Shown: positions 23,802 to 48,046 of the stretch, in pieces
Position numbering within the stretch: position 1 is the stretch's first letter
How the letters are laid out: every line of letters begins with the position of its first letter
Assembly: GCA_023078555.1 (NCBI GenBank)
Contig: CM041202.1
Span: forward strand, 5,504,522-5,568,521
Direction: 5' to 3'
From: Ulva prolifera
Lineage: Eukaryota; Chlorophyta; Ulvophyceae; Ulvales; Ulvaceae
Length of the DNA stretch: 64,000 nucleotides
Notes under the pieces: generated by a model
Databases searched by the model: none
What the model was told of the DNA's origin: nothing
The model's input: the letters and a program-made list of their open reading frames with translations, nothing else
Program-made: the position numbers and the translations under genes

Positions 23802-26800
23802 ATGACGCGTGCCAGAAGGTCTTCGCGCCCAGTTGGCGAGGATACGCCTGGGCAGCAATTGCAGTCCGCGCCAGCGCAGCAAGACCGCACGGACATCGTC
23901 GATATCCTCAACGTGCGCTGCTAAAACATATACTCCAATAGTTCATGGGGCCGTCTGCAGGAGTCACGAATGCGGTTGTGCGTGCAGGCAGCGTCAACAC
24001 ACCCTTACTGGGGTCAGCACATGAGCGAGCTTTGGGTTAGCGTTCTGGCCGGCGTGAAAGAACGCCTGGATTTTGATTCCTATAAAACAGTATGCGATGT
24101 GCTGATAGATACCTGGAACTCCGGTCCCGTTCAGGAGACCGCTGAAGCGGTCCAGTTCCAGCTACGGCTGGACCATACCTGCTCGGCTGGCGCCTGCGCT
24201 GACGGGACATGCACACTCTGCGTCAACAGTGCATCCAGGCCATGCCCGCAGCTGTTCAAGTCTAAGTACCTTTTGCGGGACGGTATCGTTCCGGCTTGCG
24301 GCTCAGGCGCGTCTGTGAGCGTCGTGCGCACGGGACGGTCTGGGACAGCATTGACGGCCGGCGAGCTCCAAGCACTGCCACCCTTCGTGTTTCAGGTAAG
24401 TTTAGAATGTAGATCCGGTTCGTATCAGCCTGTTCAGCGCCACGCTCGACGTTCCCGAAAAAGTCAGCTCGTCACCTTCGGCCCAAGTTCCTCCCACCTG
24501 CGCCTTCACAGCTGAACCTAGACTTGCGTCACACCTTCGCAAAGCAAAAAATACACTATGCCACACATCAGATCATCTTCCTGCCTCTATTCGTCTACCG
24601 GCGCCATCGCCGCACTGATCCATCGACCGCCCCGTGTCGGAGGTAGTGTCACAAGCTTGCATCATCCGTCAGAGACAGTCATACGTCGTTACCTTCGTAG
24701 CACCTTCACATCCACCTCCCCATCCGCCACCGCGGTTCCCCGCGCTGCACCCGCCCGCCGCTCGTGCAGGTATGCGCGCTCCCGTGGGCCTACTACAAGG
24801 AACACAAGGACGCCATCCCGTGGGACACCATCCATGCATGCAAGACCATCACCAAGGAGTCCGGGCCTGAGGCCGGGGCGGAGATCGAGGCCGTGCTCGC
24901 GTGCCGCGACATCGGCCACATGGAGACGGACGGCTTCATCTCCTTCCCGTACGCCGTGGACTCCGGCCAGGGCGTTGCTTCCAAGCAGGTCCTCGCCAGC
25001 AACGGCGTGAAGCTTCCGGAGGTGTTTTTCCCGAAGCGCTCGGCAGAGGCGCTGCTCGACGGCAAGCGGCCGCAGCTCGTGCTGGTGGTGCGCGCGGTGC
25101 ACGCCGCGACCGGCGCGCCGCTCGCGGCGGTGCTGCCGGCGGCCTCGACGCCGTTCCACGTCGCGACGCGTCGCACCCGCGGCAACGAGAAGGCCTACAT
25201 CCCCAGCATGGACCAGGAGGTGCGCCGAGCCGGCCGGTGTCGGTTGCGAATCCCTGTGTCGATTGCGAATCTGCGTGCTCCCTAGCGGTTGTTTGTGACG
25301 ATAGAGATATCCACAGTGTTCACGCAGGCCGGTTTCTGTTCGGCTTCAATGCCACACGGTGCTGTTTCGTTAGACACATTGCTCTGGCACTGATGGCTCG
25401 TCTGTCCCGCCTGACAGGCAGGTCTTGTCACTGGTGGCTTTCTGGGCGGTGCCTGGACCGAGCCTCCGCGGCGAGCCCACGCCAGGGCAGAGCCCTCCAC
25501 GCTGCAGTACAGCGGATACAGCGTGCGCCCCAGCCCCCGCACATGCATCCAATCGCTCCTCACACCGGCAACTGTCTGCAGGTGCGCGTCCTCGAGCACA
25601 TCGGCGACGCGTGCATCAAGAAGCTGCGGGCGCTGCCGGAGCACGTCGCCGAGCACCCCGAGGTCGCGCTGCCGGCGGCAATCCCGGAGGGCAAGGTGCT
25701 GACCGTCGCGCACATGCATGCGCTCGTGACGGCCGTCGAGAACGACAAGACCGCGGAGAGCAAGCTCTTCCTCAAGACCCTGAAGCTCAACGACGTGCGC
25801 CCCACCTCCACCCCTCCCCACGCCCGCGCGCCCCTGATCGTCGCTCCACTGTTGTACTGTGTGTTCGCCGGGGCGGGTCGCGCCGGGCAGCAAACGTACA
25901 AGTGCACATTTGTAGGCGCTGACGCACCACGCGTGCGCCTGTCTCAGGCGGAGCGCTAGGACTGCGCCCCAACTTGTTGCGTGTAGGAGAGGGTGCACGT
26001 ATTTATGGTTTACGTAGCTCACATTGGCTCCTGCTGGAAATGCGCTCCCTGTGCTAGGTCGCAGCGCATCTGCATGTTCTTTCAGAGACGCCCACCCACA
26101 GCTCTCCGTGGCCCTTTCCCCATGATAGTGCACCTGCCGCCACCTGCGCCGGCACGCTGCTCTGAACCTCAACGCTCCACTGGACGCCCAACGCTGGCGT
26201 GGAGTGCAGGACCGCCTGGGGGAGCTGAAGGAGCAGCTGAAGCGCGCGGTGCGGCCCGACTCGCAGCTGCGGGTCTTCTACTGCGGCACGTACCCGGAGG
26301 CGCCGCTGCCGAACCTCCTCGAGGGCCCGGTGGATGTCGGCCTCGTGTTCACCTGCACGCGCGGCACTGTTGACCTCCATGAGGGTGGCATCTGCGGTAA
26401 GCTCCCCCTCCCCCTTCGTCTTATTGACCATCACTGTCGATTTATTTGACATGATTCATTTGAACTCGTCTTTGTTTCTTCTTACTTTAAGATGTTGCCA
26501 GTGTGTCTGTTTACACACGAGGCACACGCCGTCTGCTCGCCGGAGTCGACGTGAAACCCATGGAGCTGTTGTTGGCATTTCGCGGGAACTGGTTGTGGCC
26601 GGTGGTGACTGAGGCATGATGGGGCTTGCCAGCGCTGCTCACGCACAGTGTCTTCGCCTCTGCAGGAGTCGTGATGCGGTCACAGCTGAGCGGGGCCGCA
26701 ACGGCGATGGAGACGATCGTGCCCCGCGACCACCTCATCCAGGAGCCGCAGCTGAAGCCGCTGCTCCTCATGCATGCGCGCCGCGCGTGGTGCACGTCCG

Positions 26801-28104
26801 GGCACCCCGGCTGGGGCTTCTACACGTTCCAGGGGCGTGCGACATCACGCATGCCGCCGGAGGGCGCCGCGCGATACCCCGTCGATCCCAACCGCATTCC
26901 GTGCTTCACCCCCAGCCAGTACGCGGAGGCTGTGGGTGATGGGGGCGCCGGTGCGGCGGGAGGTGGCGACCACGCGGATCCCGGCGCCGCAGCCGCCGCC
27001 GCCCCCGCGGCAGACGGCGCAGAGGAGGCTGGGTCTCATGCGCACAGCGGGGACGGCGGCGCGGCGCCGGCGGCGACGGCGGCGTCCGCGGAGGAAGCCG
27101 CCACCGTGGCCCGCATCGCAGCCGAGGGCTGGGCAAACATGGAGGCGCAGCATGCCGCGCAGCACGCGGCGCAGCACGCCGCGCAGCAGGCCGCTGTGGA
27201 GTCTGCGCGGGCAGCGCATGCGGCGAGGCTGGCGGAGCAGGCAGCGGCGGCCCAGGAGCCGGGGTCGCCGGGCGCGGCGTCCGCGGTTGCGACGCTCGTG
27301 CAGGCGGCGACTGCGACCCGTGCACTCGACCTCATGGCGGGCCAGCCTGCACAGGCGTCGGCGGCGTCCGCTCCGGCGAGCGCGTGGATGAACACACACA
27401 AGCTCGCGGCTGCCGCCGGCTGGTCCTCCATCTCTCAGGGCTCTCCGCCGGCGCTGTTCCAGCCGTCTGCACAGATCGAGGTCGGTGAGCCGGGTGTGCG
27501 CGCGGCGGCGTCCGGCGAGCTGCCAGGCGCACCACCACACAAGCAGGCGCGGTATGCAATCGACGCCATCGGCTACAGCGTGGGTTTACAGTGCGTTGTC
27601 TCCTGGATGTTTCTCGCTCTACTGATCTGTCATCTCACATCTGTGCAACTGTGGCGTGCTGCCGACTGCAGTTTTCTTGCGCGTCACCATCGACTATGCA
27701 GCATACCCTGAATGTCGGTACTTCAAAGTCCGTCTGGCCCTCATCAGCACAAGACCTCCTTGTGGCTATCGTCTCAATGGCGGCTCCCCGACCTCATCAC
27801 ACATGGCCTGGCTGACTCATTACCTCTGTGCAGGCAGCACGCACCACCGGACGCGGCGAGCGGCGTGCCCGCCAATGCCGGTATTTCCTTCCTGAACCTC
27901 GGGGGTCTCTCCAGTGAGCTCCAGGCTCAGAACCCTGCGCTTGTGAGCAGCATGCTCCTCAACAACAGCCTGCGCGGCGTCGTCCAGGGCAGCAGCGACC
28001 TCGGCTCGTTTCTGTTCAGCAACGGAGACAGCCTGCCCTCCGGCACCCCCCCCGGCTCTGTCGCCGCCGGCTCCGTCGCCGGCTCTGTTGAGCTTGCCGC
28101 TTAG
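23802..28104 (+). CDS. CBP60-like (calmodulin-binding protein 60-related) gene, copy A
   Basis: Seven exons (23802-23912, 23988-24395, 24770-25219, 25582-25794, 26210-26396, 26666-27551, 27834-28104) join in frame to 841 residues. Plant CBP60/SARD1 proteins are calmodulin-regulated nuclear transcription factors. The segment encoded by exons 3-5 shows their core order: STPFHVATRR, YIPSMDQEVRVLEHIGDAC across an exon junction, then QLRVFYCGTY and VDVGLVFTC. These correspond to the CBP60 motifs around DDEVWRLEKIGKDG and KLYVYY...VGVVF. Exon 2 adds an invariant Cys cluster (residues 102, 107, 112, 115, 123) and HPYW near its start. Exon 6 holds GVVMRS and HPGWGFY, then an Ala/Gln-rich coiled-coil-like stretch, and ends with a conserved WMNT helix. 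Exon 7 is Ser/Gly/Leu-rich. Copies B and C share all exon phases. DNA or calmodulin binding is inferred, and the family call rests on motif order only. Confidence 0.7.
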
Positions 28105-29331
28105 CCGCATCACAGCGCGCCGCCGGCCCCGCGTCCACGCGGGGCCTGGTCGGGGGTGGGGTGGGGGGGGGAGGTGGCTACTCCTGTATTGCTACTGGAG
28201 GCTGTGTGGGGGAGACCATGCGGTGGAGGAGGAGGAGCTGTCGTGCGTGCTGTGAAGACCGTGTGATAAACTGTGAGCCGCTGTGAAGCTGTGTTGAAAC
28301 GTGCGCCGCTGCATGTGCGCCGCTGTGAAGCTTCTCTCGTCCTGTGTGAGTCGAGCGTTCCCTGCGACTCCAGTAGCACTGAATGTGCATCCCGTCCGCA
28401 TCAGTTGACAATTTATCCTCCGGGGTTGGCGATTTTAATTCAACACTGTGTACCGGAGGGAGCATGTGCCGTGTGATATGCTGCAGTGCATCGGGGTTGT
28501 GTTGCTATTGCTATGCCTGACACCGGCGCTGTGTTGCAGGAGTTGCAGGGGTTTTGCAGGCAGAAAACTTGCCGCTCATGAGCATGACGGTCCACACGAC
28601 GTGGCACGGTTGAAGATTGGATCAGTGGAGGCTGGCACCAGGCTCATATCTGTGCCGATGTCTTTGAACTGGCTATATGTGATGTACTTGACCAAGCGCT
28701 ATCGTGTGTTCACTGGAGCTGAAAGATGTTTAATTATTGTGACCAGGCGTCACAGCAGGTGTCACAACAGTGATGGGTAGCCATGATGTACAGTTCAGAG
28801 TATCCTTTCTGAGGTTTTGTATCTCGATGGTGCTTCTGAGCTCGGAGCTGAATGCCATATAGGCATATGTTACGTCGTTGCACTGGCAATGCTGGCATCT
28901 GCATCTATCACATACTTGCTTACGGCCAAAGCCACCGTGGCTTCTGAGTGGCATTTGTCTTCCTGGTACATGGACAACAGGCTGTTGTAGCGTCTGCACT
29001 GTTGGTACGATAACGAGTTCACTCAGCGATGCAGCACATATGCAGCACAGCACGGCTGGGGCATGTACACACGGCTTGTATGTGCGATGTAATTTTTGCA
29101 GACGTTGTGCGGTGCTTCTGGATGCTTGCATTGTAGTGTGTTTTGGTGCTCTGCCTTGAATGGCCGGAGCTCTCTTGTATTCTGTTCAGTTCGTGTTGTG
29201 CAGTGCGCCGGTACCTTTCACGAGTTGAGGTGACATTTACAGCGGTCAGGTGGAAGGACCTCTCTTATGTGACATGGTTGAACATGGACGACTAGTTCCC
29301 AAAATGTTTGCTTCATCAGGTAAAGTAAAAG

Positions 29332-29433
29332 TGAAGTAAATCTAAATTTACTGAGCCGTATCCTATTGGACATCGACAACTCCGAGTTAATGGGACCACA
29401 TATGCCGAAAGGGTAAATCACCTGGAAACCCCC
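29332..29433 (+). repeat. Dispersed repeat, member 1
   Basis: The sequence from GAAGTAAATCTAAATTTACT through CACCTGGAAACCCCC matches, in reverse complement, 62719-62832. Shared blocks include CTGAGCCGTATCCT, GACAACTCCGA, TGGGACCACAT and ATGCCGAAAGGGTAAA, with small gaps between. It is probably a non-autonomous transposable element. Confidence 0.75.
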
Positions 29434-29520
29434 CTCAGACGACCGTACGCAACTCACAGGGCCTCCTCCTGTGCTAAGCGAGGGGGTCACGTACGGCCGT
29501 TTCGATTCCCCAAAGTGCAC

Positions 29521-29592
29521 GCAGAATCGAACCCACGACCCCGTGAAACGGAGGGGGTAGCTTTTAATCCGTCCTCAACCCATTGGACGGAG
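29521..29592 (-). ncRNA. tRNA-like element or SINE head with A- and B-box-like motifs
   Basis: On minus the order is ATGGGTTGAGGACGG (A-box/D-arm-like), then CCTCCGTTTCACGGGG, which resembles the anticodon arm of tRNA-Glu(TTC), then GTCGTGGGTTCGATTC (B box). The anticodon-arm stem pairs except at one end, but the variable region is too short, the T stem pairs poorly, and no acceptor stem is found. It is likely a tRNA pseudogene or the head of a tRNA-derived SINE. It lies next to a member of the dispersed repeat family. Confidence 0.35.
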
Positions 29593-30010
29593 GTCGCTTT
29601 CACGGGGGAGCAAGTTGGCAGGGGAGCAGCTTGACCAACCATGAACATTCTCGGTACCCGGACTGTGAGTACAATGTTTCTTCCAACACAGAAACTCACC
29701 AAGTGGCTTTGGAGTCACATTAGGTTTCTGCATCAATGCTTGATCAAAATAGATCACATTTATTTAAAAACAGCTCTGCCTTCACGTTGATCATAACTAT
29801 GCAGCCTCAATGGTTTTCCCCATTCCTTGCAGGGCTTCTCGGCCAAGCAATGGTTGTATCCTCTGCACTGGTGAATCCGCAACTACCGTCAGGTGTGCAT
29901 CGCTTGCTCGACCCGATATTGTGCAAGCTCGGGTAAACATTGCTTTGCAGCTGTACTCAACCAAGACGAGAGAGGACTCAACCGTCTTTGGGCCACATAC
30001 GTCGCACAGC

Positions 30011-30060
30011 GAAGTAAATTATATCTGCATTTACTCAGCGGCATCCTTAAGAGGATAGTG
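30011..30060 (+). repeat. Dispersed repeat, partial member
   Basis: GAAGTAAATTATATCTGCATTTACT followed by CAGCGGCATCCTTAAGAGGAT (partially quoted blocks GAAGTAAAT, GCATTTACT, GCATCCT, GAGGAT) resembles the left part of the repeats at 29332 and 62832. Confidence 0.5.
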
Positions 30061-30185
30061 ATGGAGGTCTCCTTGAGGCCTCATCTTGTGACTGATCTTT
30101 GGTGTTTGCTTCGAGTCATCACATAAAGCGAAGGACCCCATTGACAGCACACTTCTTCCAACACTCAGAACAGACTGGACGGCCA

Positions 30186-30239
30186 CAGATCGCGACGTGC
30201 AAGGATCCAGTGGTATAACGGCCATATCACTGGATTGCG
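30186..30239. repeat. Segment shared with the copia-like fragment at 9.95 kb
   Basis: The block containing GACGTGCAAGGATCCAGTGG and CCATATCACTGGATTGC is almost identical to 9949-9995. Within it, ATCCAGTG and CACTGGAT form an inverted repeat able to fold as a hairpin. At 30224-30259 the last 18 bases are duplicated in tandem. It is probably another small relic of the same fossil element family. Confidence 0.7.
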
Positions 30240-31550
30240 CCATATCACTGGATTGCGCATGTGTGCGCACACAGATCAATGTAAACACGACACTAAATGT
30301 CAGCCATGCAGTATCACATGCTCTGTCCCATGATTCCGGTAGGTACCATCCTGGCAGTGTGTGATTTACACAGGAATCCAAGCTGATGTTTGGCAGAGCA
30401 GACATGCTGATAATGCTCTGTTTCGCCATGTCAAGCCACACCACTGTCACTGTACCGACTCAGGCGCATCGCAGCCCAGCCGAGTGCTTGCTTGTTCACT
30501 ACGGCCACACGTGTTGTACAAGCCTGGTTCATACGACATGAGCATCAACAGCTCCTGGCTGTCACCGCTCTGCAAGCAGCTTGCCTGTACACCAGCCACC
30601 TCCAAAACATTTCAGGAGGATGTCCTGACATTGCTTCAGGAGAATGTCTGTCACTGCTTTACAAGGAGTGCGGCTGTACATCATTCACCGCAGAGTACTT
30701 GATGAGGAAGTGGCCGCACGTACTGGAACACTACAAGTGAACAAGAGCAACATCACATCATCCCACCATAAGTCGCCTGTGATCACAGCACCTTCCTTGC
30801 ACCTTCCCTGGGTAAGAAACCACGCCCTCAGCCTCAGCTGAGCCCCTGCCCGGCGAAAAAAAACACGTCAGGGCGAAACAGCGTCATGTGGCGAAGTACG
30901 GTTGTAGCGCGGGGGGAGAGCAGTGGCAAGCATGCATGGCTTGTACGAAACACAAGCTCCCCTGCCTACCAGCTCTTTCATTGACCACACGAGGACAGGA
31001 TGCGCGGTCATACGTCGCGCATTCGACCACACCACAGAACCACACCCGTGCTGCGCTGCCTCGGCAGACGACACTTCCATGGGCCCAGCGCACAGCTGGG
31101 CAACCCAGTAGATGCACGACGTGTGCTGTGCATACTCAACTTGCGCGCAGAGTCACGCCCGTTGCGTTGTGTACCTGATTGCGGCGGCACAGGGCACCGC
31201 CACAGTGTCGCATCTGCATGCTGCGTGCTGCATGCTGCGAACGCGCCACCCCACTGTACAGCACCACCTTCGGACCAACCGCCACCAGAAGCCGTCTCAC
31301 CACCGCCAGATGTCCCAGCACTGGCGACCCTCCAGCCACACTATGCTGTCTGCAGCAAAGCAGCGCGCCCTGTCACGTCACGCACAGCGGCACCGCACAG
31401 AGGCCACCCTGCAAGACCCGAAGCAGCTAGATATGAAGCGCCCGGATCACTCTTTGGACTACAATGAATTCTAGTCGGCTGCGTTCGGCTCCGCCATGCA
31501 ACGGCGTTTTGCCGTATCACGCATCACACAAACACACTCCGCGACACGCG

Positions 31551-34500
31551 TCACGCCGCGTCGACCTCCATCGCGGCGGCGCCGGGGCTGCCTCCCGGCG
31601 AGGCCGAGCCGGGCGCGCGTGCGTCGACGGCCGCCGACGTCGAGATGCCCGGCGGCAGGTCGCCGCTCATCGAGGGGAACTGCACGCTGCTGTTCAGGAG
31701 GTTGCTGAGCAGGCCGGGGTGCAGGTTCGGGTTGAGCTCGGTGGAGAGGCCACCGGAGTAGAAGAGCTTCGAGAGGCTGAGGGGATTGGCGGCCGCGGCG
31801 GCCGACACGCCGCGCTCCTGCAGCTCGCGCTGGCTGCGCGCCGCCTCGTCGTCGTCGAGCCTGCAGGAGCCGCACACGCGGTCGGCCACAGGCCAGCACG
31901 CTGCACGCGTCACATGCTGCGACATGCATGCTGACAACTCAGATATCAAGCGAGCTCAAATGAACACGCGAGCCTCTGTGTGCATCTCGTTACAATCACG
32001 TGCCCGAGCTGCTCGTGGCGGCGCCCCACGCGTGTCCAGGTGCGCAGGCACTCACAGCCACAGGGAGGCCGGAGGCATGGCACACCTGACCTCGACGCCG
32101 CGTTCCCGCTCCCCGGATCGCGGCCGCTGCCGCTCCGGCCGCGCGACGTCAAGCGCCGCGCTGCCGAGCGAGCTCCGCAGCCGCACGAGGCCGCCGTCGC
32201 AGCCGTCGTCCCGCGCCGCCGCGGCCGCCCCGCCGAACAGCGGCGGCCCGCCCGCCGCCCCCGCAAACATGCCCGCCACGAGTGCCCCCGCCGACGCCCC
32301 GAACGGCCCCGGCATCGCCGGCGTCTGCGCCGCGATCGCGTTTGTGTCCATCCAGTTCGAACCCGGCGGCGGCGCGGGGAAGTCGACCGGCAGCGACAGC
32401 TGCGACCACGGGATGTCCCCGGTTGACAGCCCGAGGCTCGACAGGCCGGCGGCGGTCGCAGCGGCCGTCGCGCCGCCGCCGTCCCGCGCCGCCTCCACAC
32501 CCGCGCTGTTGAAGATATTCTGCAGCTGCGCGCGGCGCTGAGCGTCCACCTCCGGGCTGCGCCGGCCCCCCGGCGACGGCGAGCGCTTGCCGTCCGCCAT
32601 CACCGAGTCGCCCCCGTCGGCCCCACCCAGCTTCCCACGCCCGGGGCTCCCCGACGCAACAGCCTCGCCGGCGGGCTTGCCGGAGGCCGCAGCCGCCGTG
32701 CCGCCGACCGCAGCGCGCACAGCGTCCCCAGCGTACTCCGTCGGCGTGAAGCACGGCACCTGGGCCGAGTTGACGCTGTAGTGCGGCGCGTCGGAGCCGG
32801 GCATCTGCGTCGTCGTGGCGTCGTTGTGCTTGTACAGGCCCCAGCCGGGGTGGCCGGGAGTGTTCCACGCGCTCTTTGCATGCATGAAGAGCAGCGGCAC
32901 GAGCTGCGGCTCCTGCGTGAGGTGGTCGCGGGGCACGATCGTCTCGACGTTGCGGTACGGCGACCGCATGACGACGCCTGCACTCACATGGCACATGGTG
33001 TTAGCTTACTAGCAGTCGACTGCGACGCCGATGCTTGCCGGCACCAGAAGTTGTCACATGGCGTCTGGTGCATCGGGCTGCACACGCAGGGTCTTGGTTT
33101 CGGGTCATCCTACTCAACAGGGTTTGCGCCCATCTCGCCCCAGTCCGGGAATGAAGAGTATAGATACTGTACTACTTGGTCCGTAGCCCCCGCAGATTGC
33201 AAGGCAGGAGAGCGGCCCGGCGGGGTGGCGGGGCAGCGCACCGCAGATGCCGCCCTCGTACAGGTCGACAGTGCCGCGGGTGCAGGTGAACACGAGGCCC
33301 ATGTCCACCGCGCCTTCCAGAAGGCTCGGCAGCGGCGCGGCGGGGTACGTGCCGCAGTAGAACACCCGCAGTTGCGAGTCGGGCCACACCGCCTTGGCCA
33401 GCTGCCGGCGCAGCTCCCGCCACTTCTCCTGCACGCGTACCCCGTCAAGCCCGACCCCCCTCGCAGACGACGGCAGCGTCAAAGAATCAGAGAAACATGT
33501 CGGGAGCGCGTGGTGGGCCACGGCTGCGCAGCCACACCGCAAGCGGCCCGCAGCTCCCACACATACAGACGAGACAGTGTGCAGCGGGTGCTGCCGCAAG
33601 CGGCCCGCGGCGGCGACTGCATGACCCGCGGCGGCGGCGCACCTCGTTCATGTTGAGGATGCCCTGGAAGAGCTTCTTCTCGGCGGTCTGGTTGTCCTGG
33701 TTGGCGCGCATGAGCGCGACCATGTGCTCGACCGTGCGCACGCCCGACGGCGGCACGGCGGCCGGCAGCTCGATCTCGGGGTTCGCCGCGATGTGCACGC
33801 GAACCTCGTTGAGCTTGCGGATGCACGCGTCGCCGATGTGCACGAGCACGCGCACCTGCACCCGGCTGCCTGTGTCAGCTCAAATCAGCCGCTGGCGCTG
33901 GTGAAACTAGGCGGTAGTAGCCGGTGAAATTAGCGCCGCAGCGCACGCCCAGTTGTGTGACAAGGAGGAAGCAGGCAAGGCAGGGCGCACTGCAGGAAGT
34001 GTGTGCACGACTGAGATGGGCAGGAAGCACACGCAGGCCACCACCGGCGGGCCTGGCGACTCCCGGTCACTCGGGTGTGGCATGCGGGAGCGTATGGTGC
34101 CCCAATCGCGAGGTGCACAGAGAGCGCAGGTGACTACGCAAATGGTACTGCGGACGCGGCCCGAGCTTGAGATGTGCAGCCAGGGAATGTGTGTGTGTGT
34201 GTTACAAGGACAAAGCAAGCAAGGCAGGTAGCACCGCGAGCAGCAACCAGGGGAACCGCACACTACGCAACAAGCCACACGCATCACACACCAACACACC
34301 CACGCACCGCCAGCACTTGTGCCGGCCACAGCCACACAGGCATGTGAATGTGTGTGTGGTCGTGGGCCATGGCGGCGAGGGGCGGTGAGTGTGGGTGCGA
34401 GGGTGACTCAGGCGCCTGTGCGGCCTTCCAGGCGATGGTGTGTTGCATCCGGGTTGGACATGATGGCATTCATGGCAGCGGACAACAGGCAGCATGTAGC

Positions 34501-36200
34501 AGACGTAAGGAATGTTGTTGGACACGCAGATGTGTCTGATGTTTGCATGTCTGCTGCTGAGTTGGTCGTGTGCGGCTGCTGAGATCAGAAACGTGAGCAG
34601 ACGAGCGAGAAGGCCTGTTGAGCACTGCTCCCAACAGGCGAACGGAGTGCGCGCAGTTCTTTGGAATCCTGTGCATCGTGCGCGTTCAATTGAGCATCAG
34701 CAGACAAGACAGTATGTGGGTGCCTCGGTGCCCATGTGCACACCAGTCACCCCGTGTGGGTGAGAGTGAACGAGCCGAGCAGAGGTGAGAGAACATTCAG
34801 GCATGTTGTGGAACAGAAAGCACTGGTGCTGCCACCACATTCACCACGGTCTGGGGTCTCACCTCCTGGTCCATGCTGGGGATGTCCACTTTCATTGCTC
34901 CCTTGACCCTTCGGGTGGCAACGCAGAAGGAGTTGGACACTGCAGGCCGCACTGAAGCGATCGGGGCGCCAGTCCGTGCAGTGACAGCTCGGACGACCAG
35001 AACAATGGGTGGCTGCTTTCCATCAAGCAACGACTCACCGGAGCGCTTGGCGAAGAACACTTCTGGCAAGCGGATGCCTGCATCCGACGTTGTTTCCTTG
35101 TACTCTGCTCGCCTGCCTGTCTCGAGCGCATGCGGGAACGATACGAATCCATCTGGTTCGAGCGTTCCGTTCTCCTTGCAGTTCAAGACGGGCTCACGGT
35201 GATGGGCGCCATCCTCTTGGAAAGTGACGGTGTTGCTTTCATGGATGTTCGCCCAAGGAATGTTGGCTTGGTGTCGTTGAAGGTACGACTGTGGCAGGGC
35301 GCAAACCTGCATGTTGCATAGCGTGAAAGAAGCTGAAACCGATGGAACGTAAGCCGAAGCTGATGCCGTTCGATGTGTTTGTGCACAAGCAGAATCTAGA
35401 GCTGGCCCTGCCTCGGCCGGGGGCGCGGTGGGGTGCACCGCTCTGCAGCCTCGACGGCTTGGCCACGACTCACTCAAAGGCATCAGAACAGAGCTCGCGC
35501 AGCCGATGGATCATATGTTTCGTAGTGAGGCGGACTGGCAGCGCCGCTTGCTATTGAAAACTCACAAATCGTACAGAAGCTGACGAGAATGTGGACATGG
35601 CCAACACTGAACACACGATCGCATACGCTGTGTGCGTAAATCAGCGACCACTTGGATCACATTACCTGCAAAATAAATGGCGGAAGCTTCTGAAACTCCT
35701 TCTCGCTGACAGATCGACCGGATAAGCCTGTTTGTTTGAGCCGAACTGATGTTGGGGCACCGCATGCCGGCACGAGAGAATCCTTGACGAGATACTTCGG
35801 GCTTAGCAGCTCAGGACATCGTCTAGATGCAGAGTTCCTGCACAGCGTGCATGTCCCATCCGTGCACGCTACTGCAGCACAGTCGTGGACCAGCTCCAGC
35901 TCGAGCTGCACTGGGTCGTCCGCCATGGCAGACGCGGACTGCCACGTCTCCGCAAGAACTCGACATACAGTCCCATATGCGGTTCCTGGTAGCTGTTGTT
36001 TCAGCCCAGCCAAGAACCTCCTCCAGAGCTCTTCGGGGTGGTGTGCCCAGTAGGGATGAGTGGATGTTGCCTGCACAGGTGCTAGCCTCTCGCTTCTGAT
36101 CTATATTGCTATTTCAGCAGTTGATGAAGGCGTTTGCGCGTACGTTCAGTATTTCCGATAACGCCGATGTTGCCTGTTCCTCTTGGGAGGCGTCCTCCAT
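31551..36200 (-). CDS. CBP60-like gene, copy B
   Basis: Seven exons (36144-36200, 35666-36070, 34863-35306, 33643-33855, 33242-33428, 32086-32977, 31551-31860) join in frame to 835 residues with the same intron phases as copies A and C. The short first exon encodes MEDASQEEQATSALSEILN and ends at a GTACGC donor. Exon 2 has THPYW and the Cys cluster at residues 83, 88, 93, 96 and 104. Exon 3 has FCVATRR and IPSMDQE, exon 4 VRVLVHIGDACIRKL, and exon 5 LRVFYCGTY and VDMGLVFTC. Exon 6 begins GVVMRS, contains HPGWGLY, a Ser-Pro-Gly-rich linker with KRSPSPGGRRSP, and a WMDTNAIA helix. The final exon is acidic and Ser-rich. The segment after the second Cys pair differs from A and C enough to suggest an old duplication. 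The third intron (about 1 kb) contains a dispersed repeat member at 34198-34250. It converges with copy A, and copy C lies upstream on the same strand. Confidence 0.7.
34198..34250 (+). repeat. Dispersed 50-bp repeat, copy in intron 3 of gene B
   Basis: GTGTTACAAGGACAAAGCAA followed by GCAAGGCAGGTAGCACCGCGAG matches copies at 39323-39378 and 42137-42191 (reverse complement) and 41601-41640 (weaker). It follows a short GT run. Confidence 0.75.
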
Positions 36201-38993: not shown

Positions 38994-39022
38994 TTGGGGG
39001 GGCTGGGGGTGGGGGCGGGGGC
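38994..39022 (+). other. G-quadruplex-type tract
   Basis: Four G runs of at least five bases are separated by CT, T and C (GGCTGGGGGTGGGGGCGGGG inside). This is a textbook intramolecular G4 pattern on plus. The 300 bases after it are strongly G-rich and include the 25-G run at 39134. Confidence 0.75.
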
Positions 39023-39133
39023 CCCTGGCGGTCAGCTGGCTTGGTCGGGTGGCAGCGGGCGGTGTCGACCCGGGCGCGGCTGCATCGTGGACCCACGCTT
39101 GCGGGCTGGGGTGGGTGTATATATATAGTTGAT

Positions 39134-39158
39134 GGGGGGGGGGGGGGGGGGGGGGGGG
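39134..39158. repeat. Poly-G run of 25
   Basis: This is an uninterrupted run of 25 G in intergenic DNA, immediately after a TATATATAGTTGAT segment. Confidence 0.9.
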
Positions 39159-39322
39159 TGCGTGCGGGGACCAGGATTGAGGGGTGTGGGGTGCGTTTCG
39201 GATGTGGGTGTGCCAGTCTGCGCGTTCGATTGTTCGGGACTCTGTGAGTTCAAAAGTTTTGCGTGCACCGGCTGCGACTGTGGCGTGGGTGCGCTGGCCC
39301 AGGCCGGTGGTTGTGCTCTAGC

Positions 39323-39378
39323 GTTGCTTGCTGGTTTCGCGGTGCTGCCCGCCTCGCCGCCTTTACCCTTGTAACACA
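39323..39378 (-). repeat. Dispersed 50-bp repeat, minus copy
   Basis: In reverse complement it reads GTGTTACAAGGGTAAAGGCG then GCGAGGCGGGCAGCACCGCGAAA, matching the copies at 34198, 41601 and 42137. All copies can be read as CYKxKxxxAxSTA or VTRxKAARRAAPR, depending on frame. Confidence 0.75.
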
Positions 39379-41600
39379 TGCCGACCCCGCACGGTGCTTG
39401 CTAGCATGTTTTTGCAGTGCTGTGAGAATATGTGTCCCATGGATCCTGCACATGAGGGTCAATTGCACGCACAAGTGGCCTGCCGAGTGCAGAAAACCTT
39501 TGGTACATGTTTCAAATTGTTCGTATTCTTGTACTGGAACAGATCTTCGAACTCGGTCTGCTCCGAGCGGAGTCCCCATAAGTCGTAGCCAGAGTGTGCT
39601 AGCGCTTGTGCAGCTGTTGTATTTCTGTCATGCAACATTGCCGATTCAACAGGGGCTACCTTGTTTGCTTTGTTTCACAGCCTGAGGACACATAACAAAC
39701 AGTGGCGGCGTCTTGGAAAGCTGGAGTGGCGCCGGCACACGCGGCATTTGAAGATGAATTTATATAAATTGCCATGTTAACCCTCCCCCGGGCCGGGCCG
39801 TGCATGGATCCCGTGCATGCACTCGTGCTGGTTCACAATGAGGTACATGTGGCGCTGTTGAGCCAGAGGTGTCAGCGCATGAAAATTTCTGAAAATGCGA
39901 TGATATTTGAAAGCAAAGTTCCATATGGGGATCAAAGGCCAGTGCACAGTTCATTAAGCCTGTAGCCACTGCAGGTCGACCTTCGATCCAGGGCCGGATC
40001 TGTTCGGAAATCTCCTTTGAACCCTGGGCTGTGATTGCCACTCGGGCCATGGAGATCCGCGAGTCATGAGCGCTGCATATTTTGAGGATTTTGTATATGG
40101 TATCTGAATGTCATCAGCACCACTGCGAGCCGATGCGGCTGTTATAATTATATTGCGCATGCCACCAGCATTGCACCATGGTGTTGAGCACTGTTGAGCC
40201 CAGCTAACTATAGGCACATTGTTACAATTATGTTCTTAACACCTGTTGCGGCATTCTACGAGCGAAACCCCTGCAGGGGCAGCACATGGTCGCGGATCAA
40301 GACAGTCTGCCGACCGCACACACCGGGTCCCAATTGCCACTGCTACATCGATGCGATATCTGTATGCATATGGTCTCTACGTACTCAGTAGGCTATCGCG
40401 ACGTGAATGTACGTACACATGTATGCCGTGGGTGCACTGTGGCGGGCACACAGCTAGCTGCGCTGCAGGCCGGCCTGCGCATGCCCATGGGCGAACACAT
40501 GCTGCTGCACATACAACAACGAACGAGCATGCGTGCACGGCAATTGTGATGTCTGCGGCTATCCGTTCACGCCTCAAAGATCGCAGGCACGCTGCGCTCT
40601 CGCTGCATTAGAGAGCACGAGGTACAGCTACTACGCGCGGGTGTGCACTGCATGCGCGATTGCAATCGTTCGGAGGTGGGACGCGTGAATCGTGAACTTC
40701 GCGGTGGATACCACGGCCCGCGCCGCGTGGGACCACGGCACGTTGCAGCGGCCCGCGACAATGTACAGTCAACAGGTGACTTGCGGCCGGACACTACGAG
40801 ATCACGATGAGTTCATAAGGTCGTGTGAGTCCGTCGAGGTTGTGGGTGCGTCTGGGGCTGAGATCCACGCGCAACTCTCTATAGGCAGGCGCTCTTTGAA
40901 TGCTGGGCCTGGTCGCGCGCCTGTGCACAGCATTGTATACATCCCATGGCAGCAACTGCACATGTAGATGTACCTACCGTACCAACGGTAGTGGAGGGTG
41001 CGGCGTGCAACACCATCCACACATCCAGCTGTAGCCAGAAGTGATGTACAGCTATACTTTTAATGTCTGAGTTGAGCAAATCTGGATTTATATGATCTGG
41101 ATTCATCTGGAGCTCCTGGGCCTGGTTGGCCGTATCCTTATCTATCCTCATCGTACTGTCCTGGACCAGTGACCTTGATTGCATGCAGTCAACAAGTGAC
41201 ACATATGTTCGCATACAGGTACTGTCACGGACACAGGGTACCCCTACAACAAGGGGCCATCATGACGTGGGATTGTCTGTGTGTACATGGTCTCAGAAGA
41301 ACAAAGGTGAGCAGGCAGGTGGCACTATAGTGCCTGTAGCTACAGGCGCGCTTGTGCAGCACATGTCCTCGCAGCACCCAAGCCACATGTCCGGCCAGCA
41401 CGAACAGGAGATCAACTTGTGTTATGCCTGCTAGCACCCTTTCACTGTCTTGTGATCACCACAATCGTTGGCTGCATCATGATGCATTCATCTGGAGATG
41501 CGGATGGGGGAATCGTTCTGGTGGGGGGCCCTGGCCACCATGGGCCGCTGGCCACTGCGCAGGCCACGTGGCCATATATATACGGCACGCACAACACTGT

Positions 41601-41640
41601 GTTGTACAAGGACAAAGTCAGGGAGGCAGGTAGCGCTGCA
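41601..41640 (+). repeat. Dispersed 50-bp repeat, diverged plus copy
   Basis: GTTGTACAAGGACAAAGTCA followed by GGGAGGCAGGTAGCGCTGCA is a weaker match to the repeat core. A still weaker piece (AACAAAGGTGAGCAGGCAGG) lies at 41300-41326. Confidence 0.55.
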
Positions 41641-42065
41641 GGCACTGTGATCACACGCTGCAGCTGTCCTTAATTGCAGCATGCATGCATGTATTCGCTG
41701 TGCATGTGAACATGTGCCGCCTGTGCACTGTGTGCAGGCCAGGGGTGCTTCCTGTTCAGCTACTAGCAGCTGCCATGTCACAACGACAAAGGCTGACAAG
41801 CGCTGACGGAGGCGCCGCGGCCAGCAGCACTGCAAATCCAGCCACACAACGCGTGAATCATGCAAACACCCCCAGGACAACACACCCAAGCGACAGCCTG
41901 CACACGCCGAATCCAAGCGAATACATGTCGGCACTAGCAGCTGCTCTGGGCCGTGTATGCAGTGCTGGCCAGCACCATGGCTGTGGCAGCTAATTTTATA
42001 CAGCAGCTCAGCGCTGGTTCAGAGAAGCATGCACGCATGTGCACACAGCTGAGCTCGGTACTGGG

Positions 42066-42084
42066 TTTTTTTTTTTTTTTTTTT
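42066..42084. repeat. Poly-T run of 19
   Basis: Nineteen T are followed by ATTTTG. The run lies 53 bases before a minus-strand member of the dispersed 50-bp repeat. Read on minus it is a poly-A tract just after that repeat, as a retroposed element would have. Confidence 0.8.
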
Positions 42085-42136
42085 ATTTTGGGCGTGGTGG
42101 GTGTCGCGTGCGTGGGTGTCTGTGTGTTTGCTTCGT

Positions 42137-42191
42137 TTGTTTGCTTCTTTCGCGGTGCTGCGCGCCTTGCTGCCTTTGTCCTTGTAACACA
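42137..42191 (-). repeat. Dispersed 50-bp repeat, minus copy with poly-A-like tail
   Basis: In reverse complement it reads GTGTTACAAGGACAAAGGCA then GCAAGGCGCGCAGCACCGCGAAA. It is the best match to the copy at 34198. A 19-base A run (on minus) lies a little downstream at 42066-42084. Confidence 0.8.
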
Positions 42192-42213
42192 GCTGAGCTC
42201 GCATTGCCAGAGT

Positions 42214-42227
42214 GGGGGGGGGGGGGG
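42214..42227. repeat. Poly-G run of 14
   Basis: This run of 14 G lies 23 bases from the dispersed repeat copy at 42137-42191. Confidence 0.85.
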
Positions 42228-43412
42228 TTCGGATTGATACCGCCTTGTCCCTGAGATGCGGTGGGGGCTGGAGGGGCTGCGCGGCGGTGCGCCAGGCTGG
42301 CTGGGTCTGCTGTGGGTCTGTGGGGAGGGTGGGAGTTGACAGCACGAAAGCCTGGGTCTGGTACTGCACCTGCAGACACGGGCCCATCGGAGTTCGGGCG
42401 CACCTCGCGTGGTGGTTGTGCGGTGTGCAGTTTCAGAGCCCACTGCCACTGCTGCAGATTTGCGAGAGGCATCCGATCGCACCGACGACCACGCAACGTC
42501 GGCCGTTGCCCAGCACAGTCCAACGTATATCCATATGGATTTGCCAAGCACTGACGGCACGCAGGCATCCTTGAGAGCACAGTTTGTGGGCTGGCCAGAG
42601 GTTACAGTGCGTATCTCGAGATACATATGCTTGTCGCGGTAGCAGAGCATGCATGTTCTTGATTCCGCAACAGCAGCTACCCCAAGGCGTATTGTTGTCT
42701 GTTACCATCGTTGTGCTTCGCTAAATATCATGCCTTGACAGTCTCTGAGATATGGGTTTGTGCGGATTGGGCAGTTGGCAGCTTATGCGCACGTGCGCTA
42801 TCACGGAGCATAGCACAACCCAACATACAAGTGTGAGCTAGGTCACGAGCAACAGTGCTTTGAAGGAACAATACATCAGCAAGTTCAGAACATGTAGCCC
42901 GTGAAGTAAGGGTCAACTTTCACTGCATCACATTCGTGACCTTGTGGGCTGCACTCGATCATTTGCATGATCCTTCAAATTGTTCACAAAGGTGAGGTCC
43001 GGATCCTCTGCGGTCCACAGGCGAGACCACCTGTTCTTGTGCAATGTACACACAGTGCTGACACTGCTCCGAGACAATTCTGAGGTCTTCCAAAAATCTG
43101 TAGCCGCATGTTCTCCAGGGTTGAACAGCGGTACACGGTGAGGCTGTGAAGGAAGGCTCATCTGGCATGCATGTTAGAGGTGCATGCCTGCTCAAGTGCT
43201 TGGCACGTACATGCATGGCTACTGGTGGCAACAAGCAATAGCACACAATCAACCCCAGACGAGGTCTGGTGCAGCTGCTTTGGCATACTTTAAATTTACA
43301 ATCTGTAGTCTTCAAAATGCTACATCACAGGCCACCGGGCCAACATGGCTGCATGGGCACAATACAATCGGTCGGGAGTGATATTCCACATCAAGCTTGT
43401 GGTACTACGGCC

Positions 43413-46030
43413 TCAGCCGCCGCCCGATGCACACTCTAGCTCCCCACTACCACCAATGTACGCATGTATAGGGGTGCCGGCGCGGCCTCCTGGGGGGTCC
43501 AGGTGGCCGCTGCAGAAAGCGGCGGCGGTGTTCGCCACCAGCACCGCCGAGTCATGCATGCCACCCCCCAGCCCGATCCCTTGCGACTCCATGCGTGCGG
43601 CTAGATCCCCTGACGGCCCTGCTGCTGCGAGCATGGAGCCAATCTCGGGTAGATCGGAGAAACTCAGCCTGCACATGATCAACTGGTGAGCAAATGCATG
43701 GTCACTGACGGCATGTGTGCCTGGGTGGACAGCCGCAGTGGGTGGCAAGGGTACTACGTAAACCAGAAAATTCCAGGTGTAGCTAGACCTATAGGCCCCG
43801 ACGATTAACGACATGGCACGTCTGCACACAAGCGATCCCACCATGGCAGATGTCATATGAAGCATGTTAGACCACGCACTGGCAGCACGCAGCATGCCTT
43901 TTATGATCACTGGCTTCGTGACAATGCCGCCTGTGCATGATGGCATGTGTGCACATTCCTGGAAATACACAGCTCTCCTGCCCTTGCGGCCTTGTTTACA
44001 TGCATGCCACCGTGCTGGTCAGGTGCCGGACGGTCAGACCGCACCATGAGTCCCCTCTGTCCAACTCATCAAGTTCCGCAGTACCGTCGCCCCTCGCCCG
44101 CTTTCCCCCGCGGCCACCCAGCTCCACAGACGCGCTCCGCGCACGCACAACGCCCGCCGCCGCCTGCAGCTGCTCTGCCGGACCCATACACGGCGGCGCC
44201 GCATTCGCGTCCCAGGCTCGCGCATCGGGCTGCACATGCATGGCGCTGGCGAGTGCGATCGTGTCCATCCACGTCGGCCGGGGGCCCGTCCGCGGCCCCT
44301 CAGCATGCGCAGCATGCGGAGGCGGCTCGGCGGAGGGCTTCTTGGGCTCGTGCCCGGGTCCACGCACTGCCGGCTGGAGCCACGGGGCCAGCGGGTCCGG
44401 GTCCGGCCCCGGGCGCGGACGCGCTCCGGGGGTATTGGATGCAGACGGACTCACGGCGCGGCCCCATGCCGCCGGAGCCGCTGCAGGTGCTTTGCCTCCG
44501 CGTCTGATGTCGCAGGATCCCTTGTGCGTCACTCCGCCAAACCCGTTCTCCTGATCCATCTCTGTTGGTTCATCTGCCAGTCGAGCCATGAACGCCGTGA
44601 CATCATGAGTGTGCCCATCTGCGCCCTCCACTTCCGTGGCATCACCAGCAGTTGCATGTGTGCCGTCTTCTGCCGTGTGCAGCTTCGAGGATGGTCCCGC
44701 GCCGGCGCTGCAAAAACAGTTCCCCCCCAACGGATCGGCGCAATGTCCTAACGACGGATTGCATTCAAGACCGTCGCTCGGGGTGAAGCAGGCGGCCTTG
44801 CGGGGGTCCGCGGGGTACGGCCCGGTGCCGGAGGGGGGCATGCGGGCGGTGCGGCGGCCCTGGAAGACGTAGTGGCCCCAGCCGGGGTGCGTCGGGCAGT
44901 TCCACGCATGCACGGCATGCGTGAAGAGTGACGGCTTGAGCTGTGGCGCCTGGAAGAGGCTGTCGCTGGGCACGACGACTTCGGAGCCGTCGCGGGACCT
45001 CATCACCACTCCTGCATGCACGCACAGGGTACAGAACAGTACCCACACGCTGTGTGCTGTGATGCCGCAACCCCGAATTCGAAACCAGGCAACTCTGGGT
45101 ACATGATGTGTGGTAGCTCGCTGATCGACGTCGAGTCTGTATGGGGCCGGACGACGCTGCAGAGCGCTCGGTAGGCCACCCGAAGAGCGGTGGGGAGACT
45201 CCCCAGATGTGAGATGACACACCACGAATGCCCATTCAACGTAAACAATAGCGAAAGTGTTCCTCAAGCGGTCAAAATCGCAGCCGAAGGGCCCACCATG
45301 TATCGGGAGTGGTTGACCCCCTACCTGAAGGCCGCATGCATGCGGTCCACACGACATGGTTGCTATGCATGACAGAGCCGGGACTTCTGGGCTACGCACG
45401 AGGAGCTGCTATGCATCACATGAGACGCAGCTCCTGAGCACGCGCACACGCAGGCAGCTGTAGAGTGTGAACAGTCACGTTGGTCTGGAGGGGGGATGCC
45501 GCACCACAGATGCCGCGCTCGGTGAGGTCGACGGTGCCGTGGGTGCAGGTGAACACGAGGCCGACGTCGACGCTGCCGCCGCCGGGCAGAATCCCGGGCA
45601 GCGGCGCGGTGGCGTAGGGGCCACAGTAGAAGACCCGCAGGTTGGAGTCGGGCTGCACCGCCCTCGCGAGCTGTTCCTTCAGCTCCGCCAGCTTGGTCTG
45701 CACAGCAGCTAGGTCAGTGTGCGCTTGCGCTGGGCACAATCGATGTCAGGGCAGCGGCGCTCAATAGGTTCGCCTCTACATTCTCGAGGACTCGACACTC
45801 TGAACTGGCTGCGCTGCGCACTTACGGCGAGACAGGCAATGCCATGAGTGTGGCCCTGACACGCATGGGGCTGTGCCATCATAGGGGCTCCATCTGCGAG
45901 CTCTCGAGAGCTCTTGGCGGGGCAACGCCACAGGCACGGTTGCGTTTGTTTTGATGGGAAAGGTTCATCTGTACGGTGCATTCCATGGCCACAGAGTATT
46001 CACACGTGCGCACAGTGATACAGATGAGCA

Positions 46031-46065
<35 letters not shown>

Positions 46066-48046
46066 AAACAGTTGCAGGGGCACACGTCGTTAAGTTTGAG
46101 GGTGGTCCGGAAGAGCCACGCCTCTGCGACACGGTCGTCCTGCACCGCCGCGACCAGCGCCGCCATGTGGCCAACGGTGCGCACGACGCCGCCGGGGATG
46201 GAGGCGGGCAACGAGATGCCGGGGCCGGTGGCCTTGCGGGAGGCGAGGTGGCTGGGCAGGGCCAGCAGCTTGTCGATGCATGAGTCACCGATGTGCTCTA
46301 GCACGCGCACCTGCACCATGTGCCGCAGGTCTACTATGCCATGAACGATGGCGGCTTTGAGCGTGACAATTGGTTGAATTCTTCAGACACCTGTTTCAGT
46401 GTTGACATGTGCCATGGGGATTTGTCTCCTTGAAGGGGCATGCATATGCGGCCTGGAGCTTGCAATGTGCTCAGATGCGGAGGCACAGATGTTCCTTAAC
46501 AACTTGCTACAACAACAGTCTTGCCTCTTGAATGTTGTGCTGTGCGGCTTCCTGTCCGTCTGTGCATGTCACCCAGAGCGGGGACAAGAAATTGGCAGGT
46601 CCTGGAGGGCAGGGCCGAGGGAGGCAGCGAACCTCCTGATCCATGCTGGGGATGTAGGCCTTGGCGTTGACTTTGGTGCGGCGTGTGGCAAGGTGGAAGG
46701 GCGTGGACACGGCCGGGAGAATGGCCGGGACCGGGGCGCCGGTTGCAGCATGCACCGCCCGCACGACCAGCACCAGCTGCGGCCGCTTACCATGCAGCAG
46801 CGCCTCAGCGGAGGTGCTCTTGCCATTTGAGAATAAGATGCCCGGAAGGTTGATGCCGTCGGGAGAACACGCCTCGAGAGGAGTGAGCCCCCGAGCGGAC
46901 TGGCGTGATCGAGGGAAGGAGACGAAGCCATCATCCTCGAGGTGGCCAGACTGTCTACAAGCGAGGATTGCCTGGGCCTTCTTGCCTCTTCCTCCTGTTT
47001 TTGTGATGGTCTTGCACTCATAAATTGTGTCCCATGGGAGGTGGTCTTTGTGTTTCTCGTAGTATTCCAACGGCATAGCGCACACCTGGACACGATTCGA
47101 TGCTGCCGAAGGTGCTATACAGGAGATGCTGTTGCATCGGTGCGATGCTGCGTGGTGCTTGTGGCTACGCGAGTCGGATTCGTGTGTACCGAGACATGTG
47201 AGCTTGTACCAGCTCACAGCGTGCTCAGCGGCGAATCACAGTGGAACACAGAGATCAGGCACAGTACAAGCACAATTATCTCAGCTACCATAGCGCACGG
47301 AGTGGCGGGTCAATGTCTCAAAGCGCTGCGTGCAAACGATACAGGTGCTGATAGAAGCAGCCCTGAAGCTGCAAGCATGTGCGAGCGAGCGTCAACAACG
47401 TCTGCGTGCATTCCAGCAGCAGACGAGGTGATGGCATACGACAGCACATCCGCGGCACGCACCTGAAGAATAAAAGGAGGCAGCTTTCGCATGTCCTCCT
47501 GGGTGACATAATCTTCGGAAGAGCCCAACCGCACCAGCTTGACAGATGCTGATGCTCCACACGCTGGAAGAAGCAAGTCTCCGAGCAAGTACTTCTGTTT
47601 CAGCAAGGATGGGCATGGCCGCGAGTCGCTGTTAATGCACAGCTCACAGGTTCCACTTGAACACGCGCCAGCAGCGCAATTGTGACTCAGAGTGAGCTTG
47701 AACTGAGTCGAATTTTGCCCCGCACAGGGCGCAGCCAGCGTCCCTAGCAAGACGTCACATACTGTGTTGTATTCTTGGGGCGCCAGTTTGGTCTTGATGC
47801 CGTCTAGAAAGCGGCTGAAGTGTACTCTCGAGGACAGTGCACACGACGGGTGTGGCGACGTTGCCTGCACAAACCTGTCACATAAGCCTGAAAGAGACGA
47901 ATAAACATCAAATATACAATCTCAAGGGGAGGGAAGCGCACGTATAGCTTGTCTACGACCTCGGCGGGGTCCAGTGGTCTCTGCTCGGGCTCCCAAGATG
48001 GCGTTTGCGGGAGCTCAAAGCTCAACGATTTGCTGAGATACATCAT
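43413..48046 (-). CDS. CBP60-like gene, copy C
   Basis: Seven exons (47942-48046, 47463-47864, 46633-47085, 46086-46310, 45505-45697, 44045-45011, 43413-43668) join in frame to 866 residues, with intron phases identical to A and B. Exon 1 encodes an acidic N-terminus with PLDPAEVVDKLY. Exon 2 carries the Cys cluster at residues 98, 103, 108, 111 and 119; its HPYW motif is changed to HPSC. Exon 3 has STPFHLATRR and YIPSMDQE, exon 4 VRVLEHIGDSCIDKL, and exon 5 LRVFYCGPY and VDVGLVFTC. Exon 6 has GVVMRS, HPGWGHY, a Pro/Gly-rich linker and a TWMDTIALA helix. Intron 4 contains an exceptional 34-base G run (46031-46064). The start at 48046 is the first of two adjacent ATGs. The NYN-like gene 1 ends 750 bases away on the same strand. 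Closest in exon 3 to copy A. Confidence 0.7.
46031..46064. repeat. Poly-G run of 34 inside intron 4 of gene C
   Basis: This is the longest homopolymer in the window. It lies 21 bases from the end of exon 4, so in the transcript it is a 34-base C run directly after the splice donor. Confidence 0.9.

Follow-up and report, generated by a model that had tools for sequence, protein, structure and literature searches.

The CBP60 proteins of land plants, among them the immune transcription factors CBP60g and SARD1, are represented in Pfam by an N-terminal (PF07887, Calmodulin_bind), a central (PF20451, Calmod_bind_M) and a C-terminal family (PF20452, Calmod_bind_C), and have been called plant-specific (PMC5993538). 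Residues 1-361 of CBP60g, its N-terminal portion, contain the DNA-binding domain, and its calmodulin-binding domain is essential for its defence function; SARD1 binds no calmodulin (PMC5993538), so that this trait varies even among plants. A survey of 21 species, which relied on a search at an expect value (E) of 1e-5 together with PF07887, counted 162 CBP60 members, with none in Chlamydomonas or Volvox, and placed the first appearance of CBP60 in mosses and ferns (PMC11049924). In two further papers, SARD1 and CBP60g are described as undetected in Sargassum and other brown algae (PMC12089773), and the salicylic-acid network is seen as conserved since the emergence of land plants (PMC9654257). 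Here, we analyze a stretch of 64,000 nucleotides from the green alga Ulva prolifera (hereinafter the window; positions 5504522-5568521 of contig CM041202.1, denoted C7), which contains three paralogous genes, A, B and C. Together with a fourth, diverged paralog, D, these genes are in all probability, judging from their sequences, remote relatives of CBP60. Our searches of an open-access library brought up no description of CBP60 in an alga; PMC5591278 was rejected as a report of an Ulva CBP60 gene, since it cites CBP60g of Arabidopsis and infers a role in Ulva prolifera.

Remote similarity to CBP60 proteins

Comparison of a profile of A-D with a profile of three plant CBP60 sequences using hhalign yielded an alignment with a score of 46.2 (probability 73.9, E 2.8e-5), which extends over 339 columns with 20% identity and is collinear through the N-terminal, central and C-terminal regions. 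None of the 600 column-shuffled decoys, 200 of each of three kinds, reached this score (means near 16, maximum 29.2), and the control with a reversed profile scored 15.0. When checked against Pfam, the plant sequences employed here agreed with PF07887, PF20451 and PF20452 over almost their full length.

Gene D came from a search of the genome (88.9 Mb in 44 contigs) with the core of A, which produced 16 matches at E<=1. Twelve of these fall in A, B and C, two overlap at C1:7523751-7523927, and the remaining two belong to D (Table 1), which is located on the same contig as A-C, 1.4 Mb away. The protein encoded by D is 29-30% identical to those of A-C (BLASTP against A: E 8e-34, 30% over 389 columns), and all splice sites in its model are GT-AG. 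The search started from D returned 12 exon matches, six of D itself and six of A-C, and no further member, so that at this sensitivity the family consists of four genes. The C1 matches were rejected as a fifth gene, being a fragment of about 200 base pairs (bp) that joins the end of exon 3 to the start of intron 3; given that the fragment holds intron sequence, its source was unspliced. The C1 segment at about 7523765-7523955 (L017 4266-4456) is 85.5% identical to gene A and, by eye, lies between two reverse transcriptase-like frames.

Through D, the family is also linked to CBP60 by a test that uses none of the typed plant sequences. Three of eight overlapping constructs with the N-terminal domain of D matched PF07887 (E 6.1e-4, 7.8e-4 and 3.5e-4), with the alignment spanning positions 20-144 of the 147 in the model, and for these three constructs PF07887 was the sole Pfam family at E<=10. 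Neither the reversed N-terminal domain of D, typed by hand, nor a hand-made consensus of A-D had a match in Pfam, and a provisional piece of D matched Chal_sti_synt_C at E 0.09. In the opposite direction, a hidden Markov model (HMM) of the three plant sequences scored D at 16.9 bits, corresponding to E 0.0032 for 25,000 sequences, and gave E 54, 80 and 1600 for A, C and B, respectively. With this model, 2,657 out of 5,000 shuffled versions of D were reported; the best scored 8.8 bits, and none attained 16.9.

Several results weigh against the relationship with CBP60, and these we consider together. On the plant side, both the profile and the HMM were built from sequences typed by hand. Genes A, B and C, searched with hmmscan whole and in pieces at E<=1 or E<=10, had no match to Calmodulin_bind, Calmod_bind_M or Calmod_bind_C; the matches that were obtained involve other families at E 0.017-0.26, none of which reaches the cut-off; the lowest E, 0.017, belongs to the match of B to DUF7565. 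The central and C-terminal models, PF20451 and PF20452, were matched by none of A-D. The PF07887 match of D scored 20.4, 20.0 and 21.1 bits, short of the curated cut-off of 25.5, which thus none of the eight constructs passes; full-length D and the four other constructs containing the domain had zero Pfam matches at E<=10, so that the match, absent from five of the eight constructs, depends on where the construct boundaries are set. Without D, the profile of A-C scored 19.9 against the plant profile, a value reached by 15 of 100 decoys, and the scores of parts of A-C were reached by 26, 22 and 9 of 100. The single N-terminal, central and C-terminal domains of A-D had scores that 27, 3 and 6 of 100 decoys reached, none being significant alone; the A-D signal thus adds up from matches that are individually weak but correctly ordered. 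The model of D adds its own uncertainty because its splice sites were picked with the A-C alignment in view, with two of the joins within the N-terminal domain that was tested, and, according to the gene models, none of its five introns shares a position with one in A-C. Either D is an old branch whose introns were reshuffled, or its model is partly mis-spliced.

Structure prediction, which was applied to A-C with AlphaFold2 on the three sequences, neither favors nor contradicts the relationship. The models were poor, with a predicted local distance difference test (pLDDT) score of 42.9 for the core of A, folded with B and C, and 62.3 for the segment of A that comprises its central and C-terminal regions, where helices followed by four strands and further helices are predicted at low confidence. 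The latter model had 510 Foldseek matches at E<=10 and none at E<=0.001; the COMMD chains that topped this list were dismissed in view of their TM-scores of 0.11 to 0.22. Searches with a typed plant CBP60b core found nothing at E<=10 in the genome and no chain at E<=1 in the PDB. Genome-wide exon searches with PF07887, PF20451 and PF20452 were likewise empty, but the controls were also silent, such that this result carries little weight.

The preliminary description had singled out A, B and C as CBP60-like from their sequence. Remote homology traced via D upholds this claim, but A-C taken alone do not sustain it; likewise, comparison of the spliced proteins with CBP60 profiles turned out negative for A-C and positive for the collinear core of A-D. 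Because the curated Pfam cut-offs are not reached, A-D are placed as a CBP60-like family and not as members of CBP60.

A feature that sets the algal proteins apart is a cluster of His and Cys residues. Invariant in A-D are H70, C72, C77, C82, C85 and C93, as well as C111 (numbering of D); the stretch from H70 to C93 is flanked by the first conserved strand (LQLVF in D) on one side and by the KYLV segment on the other, with C111 coming right after KYLV. The typed plant CBP60 sequences contain no such cluster, although a single Cys occurs close by in CBP60g. The spacing of the residues suggests a metal-binding knuckle.

Proposed function, origin and competing explanations

The reading that we favor is that A-D form a green-algal family which would share an ancestor with the land-plant CBP60 proteins and which probably also acts in DNA binding and regulation. 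The products of A-D would most likely be nuclear, sequence-specific DNA-binding regulators. The beta-rich N-terminal, Calmodulin_bind-like domain would bind DNA, and its beginning presumably accommodates the short metal-binding Cys knuckle; next would come a helical central domain and a small alpha/beta C-terminal domain, and a long, probably disordered tail would recruit partners. The common ancestor would be older than land plants, and old vertical descent of the algal family is likely.

The alternatives differ in what they make of the distance between A-D and the plant proteins. Identity of 20% over 339 columns, a Cys/His cluster that is invariant in A-D and missing from the three typed plant sequences, and the unmatched central and C-terminal Pfam models would all be compatible with an ancient domain held in common with CBP60 but serving another function, the fold having been reused and the Cys cluster having changed its role, for example, in a metal-dependent scaffold or in a protein that binds nucleic acids without being a transcription factor. 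We consider such reuse unlikely, given that all three regions keep their order in the full-length profile alignment, which outscores 600 of 600 decoys. It also appears rather improbable that an unrelated algal family came to resemble CBP60 by chance, aided by the splice choices made in D. Although A-C alone and each single domain of A-D fail to beat the decoys and the Pfam match of D stays under the cut-off, being limited to three of eight constructs, the two kinds of test in which D takes part, one with PF07887 and the other with the plant profile, agree on both the family and the register, and CBP60 had been named from the sequence ahead of all these tests.

The occurrence of CBP60 in land plants, with none in Chlamydomonas or Volvox according to the survey (PMC11049924), would be expected if a CBP60 gene of a land plant or a relative had been transferred laterally into the alga, where it was duplicated and changed fast. 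However, the approximately 20% identity to plant CBP60, the distance of D from A-C both along the contig and in sequence (29-30% identity), the many introns and the common Cys cluster all speak of long residence, and a transfer of this kind seems highly improbable to us.

With regard to shared ancestry between A-D and CBP60, it is quite possible, if rather less than probable, that CBP60 predates land plants, with a form carrying the Cys knuckle present in the ancestor of chlorophytes and streptophytes and then kept and multiplied in the seaweed, whereas toward land plants the metal site was lost and the wiring to calmodulin and salicylic acid was added later. The preliminary description held that the cluster bears on the origin of the CBP60 family; this bearing is real but undated. 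Scans for relatives in two of the collections used, which are prokaryotic, viral or plasmid, produced 30 pattern matches in GTDB genomes and 85 in IMG/VR contigs, and none of these was confirmed as a relative. If the relationship is true, a distant family from a green seaweed that escapes standard cut-offs would move the origin of CBP60 back, and with it as an outgroup the DNA-binding, calmodulin-related and immune traits could each be tested on their own.

Gene models, paralogy and surroundings of the cluster

The models of A, B and C were rebuilt from the sequence by splice sites and reading frame. All 18 introns in the three genes are GT-AG, with the phases 0, 0, 0, 0, 1 and 2 in each gene, and each frame runs from ATG to stop with zero internal stops, in agreement with the three seven-exon genes of identical intron phases originally described. 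The cluster arrangement, with A and B convergent and B and C in tandem, likewise held. Position 48046 is the start codon of gene C, which extends down to 43413. Exons 2-6 are fixed by their conservation between the paralogs, whereas exon 1, taken as the first ATG that fits, and the donor between exons 6 and 7, picked to hold both frames open in phase, are the least certain parts of the models.

Table 1 Coordinates of the CBP60-like genes and their domain regions. Positions refer to the window unless a contig is given; aa, amino acids.
Feature	Position	Strand	Model	Remarks
Gene A	23802..28104	+	7 exons: 23802-23912, 23988-24395, 24770-25219, 25582-25794, 26210-26396, 26666-27551, 27834-28104	Open frame 841 aa
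Gene A exons 2-3	23988..25219	+		Matches CBP60 N-terminal (Calmodulin_bind-like) domain; conserved Cys cluster near start; PF07887 link only via paralog D
Gene A exons 4-5	25582..26396	+		Aligned with CBP60 central domain and start of C-terminal domain (VRVLEHIG... / LRVFYCG...VGLVF); basis, A-D profile alignment
Gene A exons 6-7	26666..28104	+		End of conserved core, then Ala/Gly/Ser/Pro-rich tail of ~300 aa with W-M-N/D-T motif
Gene B	31551..36200	-	7 exons: 36200-36144, 36070-35666, 35306-34863, 33855-33643, 33428-33242, 32977-32086, 31860-31551	Open frame 835 aa
Gene B exons 2-3	34863..36070	-		N-terminal domain region
Gene C	43413..48046	-	7 exons: 48046-47942, 47864-47463, 47085-46633, 46310-46086, 45697-45505, 45011-44045, 43668-43413	Open frame 866 aa
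Gene C exons 2-3	46633..47864	-		N-terminal domain region
Gene D	C7:4078476-4082428 (outside window)		Six-exon model; C-terminal tail outside model	Core matches at C7:4079308-4080647

In the core, the pairwise amino-acid identity among A-C is 50-57%, nonsynonymous divergence (dN) is 0.37-0.46 and synonymous divergence (dS) is 1.09-1.19 (dN/dS 0.33-0.39), and mismatches occur mostly at codon position 3 (0.51-0.52, compared to 0.26-0.32 at position 2). This pattern, which is far from chance, shows that A-C are old duplicates under protein-level constraint. The core motifs initially quoted are present, with variation between the genes: the PFxV site reads PFHV in A, PFHL in C and SFCV in B; A and C share YIPSMDQEV and LEHIG, for which B has DIPSMDQEV and LVHIG, respectively; LRVFY is common to all three, and VGLVF of A and C is MGLVF in B. 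The loop that precedes the VGLVF strand in A-C is missing in the alignment from the typed plant sequences and from D, where its absence depends on the donor picked there. From residue 541 on, the last 295-326 residues of A-C make up an Ala-, Gly-, Ser- and Pro-rich tail, which in each protein contains a single copy of the W-M-N/D-T motif.

The assignment of the host to green algae, made before any search, was borne out by its photosynthesis genes. The genome contains light-harvesting complex (LHC) genes, with 38 exon matches; one LHC frame matched 89 PDB sequences at E<=1e-60, and 59 of the 60 matches listed were named light-harvesting or chlorophyll a/b-binding, the exception being a 'multifunctional fusion protein'. 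Plastocyanin, encoded in two exons (L028), is identical to PDB entry 7pcy at 98 of 98 residues, followed by 1iuz as the next closest; we take these entries to be the plastocyanins of Ulva (Enteromorpha) prolifera and Ulva pertusa, respectively. A search of the assembly for the RuBisCO large subunit found none, so that the plastid genome is probably outside the assembly. ARAGORN detected no tRNA in the window.

Other features were observed within and around the cluster. A short repeat, approximately 40-55 bp in length, recurs within intron 3 of gene B (window positions 33952-33998 and 34196-34242) and in the sequence that separates B from C (39324-39378, 41598-41644 and 42137-42191). It may be the terminal part of a small mobile element; genome-wide, a query of 71 bases around 39328 returned 787 first-look candidates with at least 41 matches. 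Long poly-G runs on the plus strand are located at about 46031-46064, in intron 4 of gene C, and at about 39134-39158. Beside the cluster, the minus-strand regions 49384-51561 and 56582-58148 appear by eye to hold small genes that form another local family, with a repeated motif like EKAAVL...LFAQIGxLxxVR; the four frames tested had no convincing match in Pfam. ABC transporter exons are encoded on the minus strand at 15723-16814 and 18861-19553 (ABC_tran at E 6.6e-10 and ABC_membrane at E 7e-4, the latter under its cut-off). The segment 19582-19798 is 90% identical over 217 bp to a region of C1 (L017 6903-7119) within or beside a reverse transcriptase-like frame, and this shared repeat is probably a piece of a retroelement.

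Comparison with land-plant CBP60 and SARD1

Compared with the CBP60/SARD1 proteins of land plants, which are represented in Pfam by PF07887, PF20451 and PF20452, the algal family differs in its sequence distance, with about 20% identity, similarity below the Pfam cut-offs and no match to the central and C-terminal models, as well as in the Cys cluster situated early in the N-terminal domain and the extra loops in A-C. No calmodulin-binding site was established in the algal proteins, and the immune and salicylic-acid roles are those of the plant proteins CBP60g and SARD1. The likeness consists in the collinear remote similarity of A-D over the N-terminal, central and C-terminal regions, in the PF07887 match of D, seen at E 3.5e-4 to 7.8e-4 with three of the eight constructs of its N-terminal domain, and in the organization as a small multigene family. 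By homology with the immune transcription factors CBP60g and SARD1, the algal proteins would be possible DNA-binding regulators.

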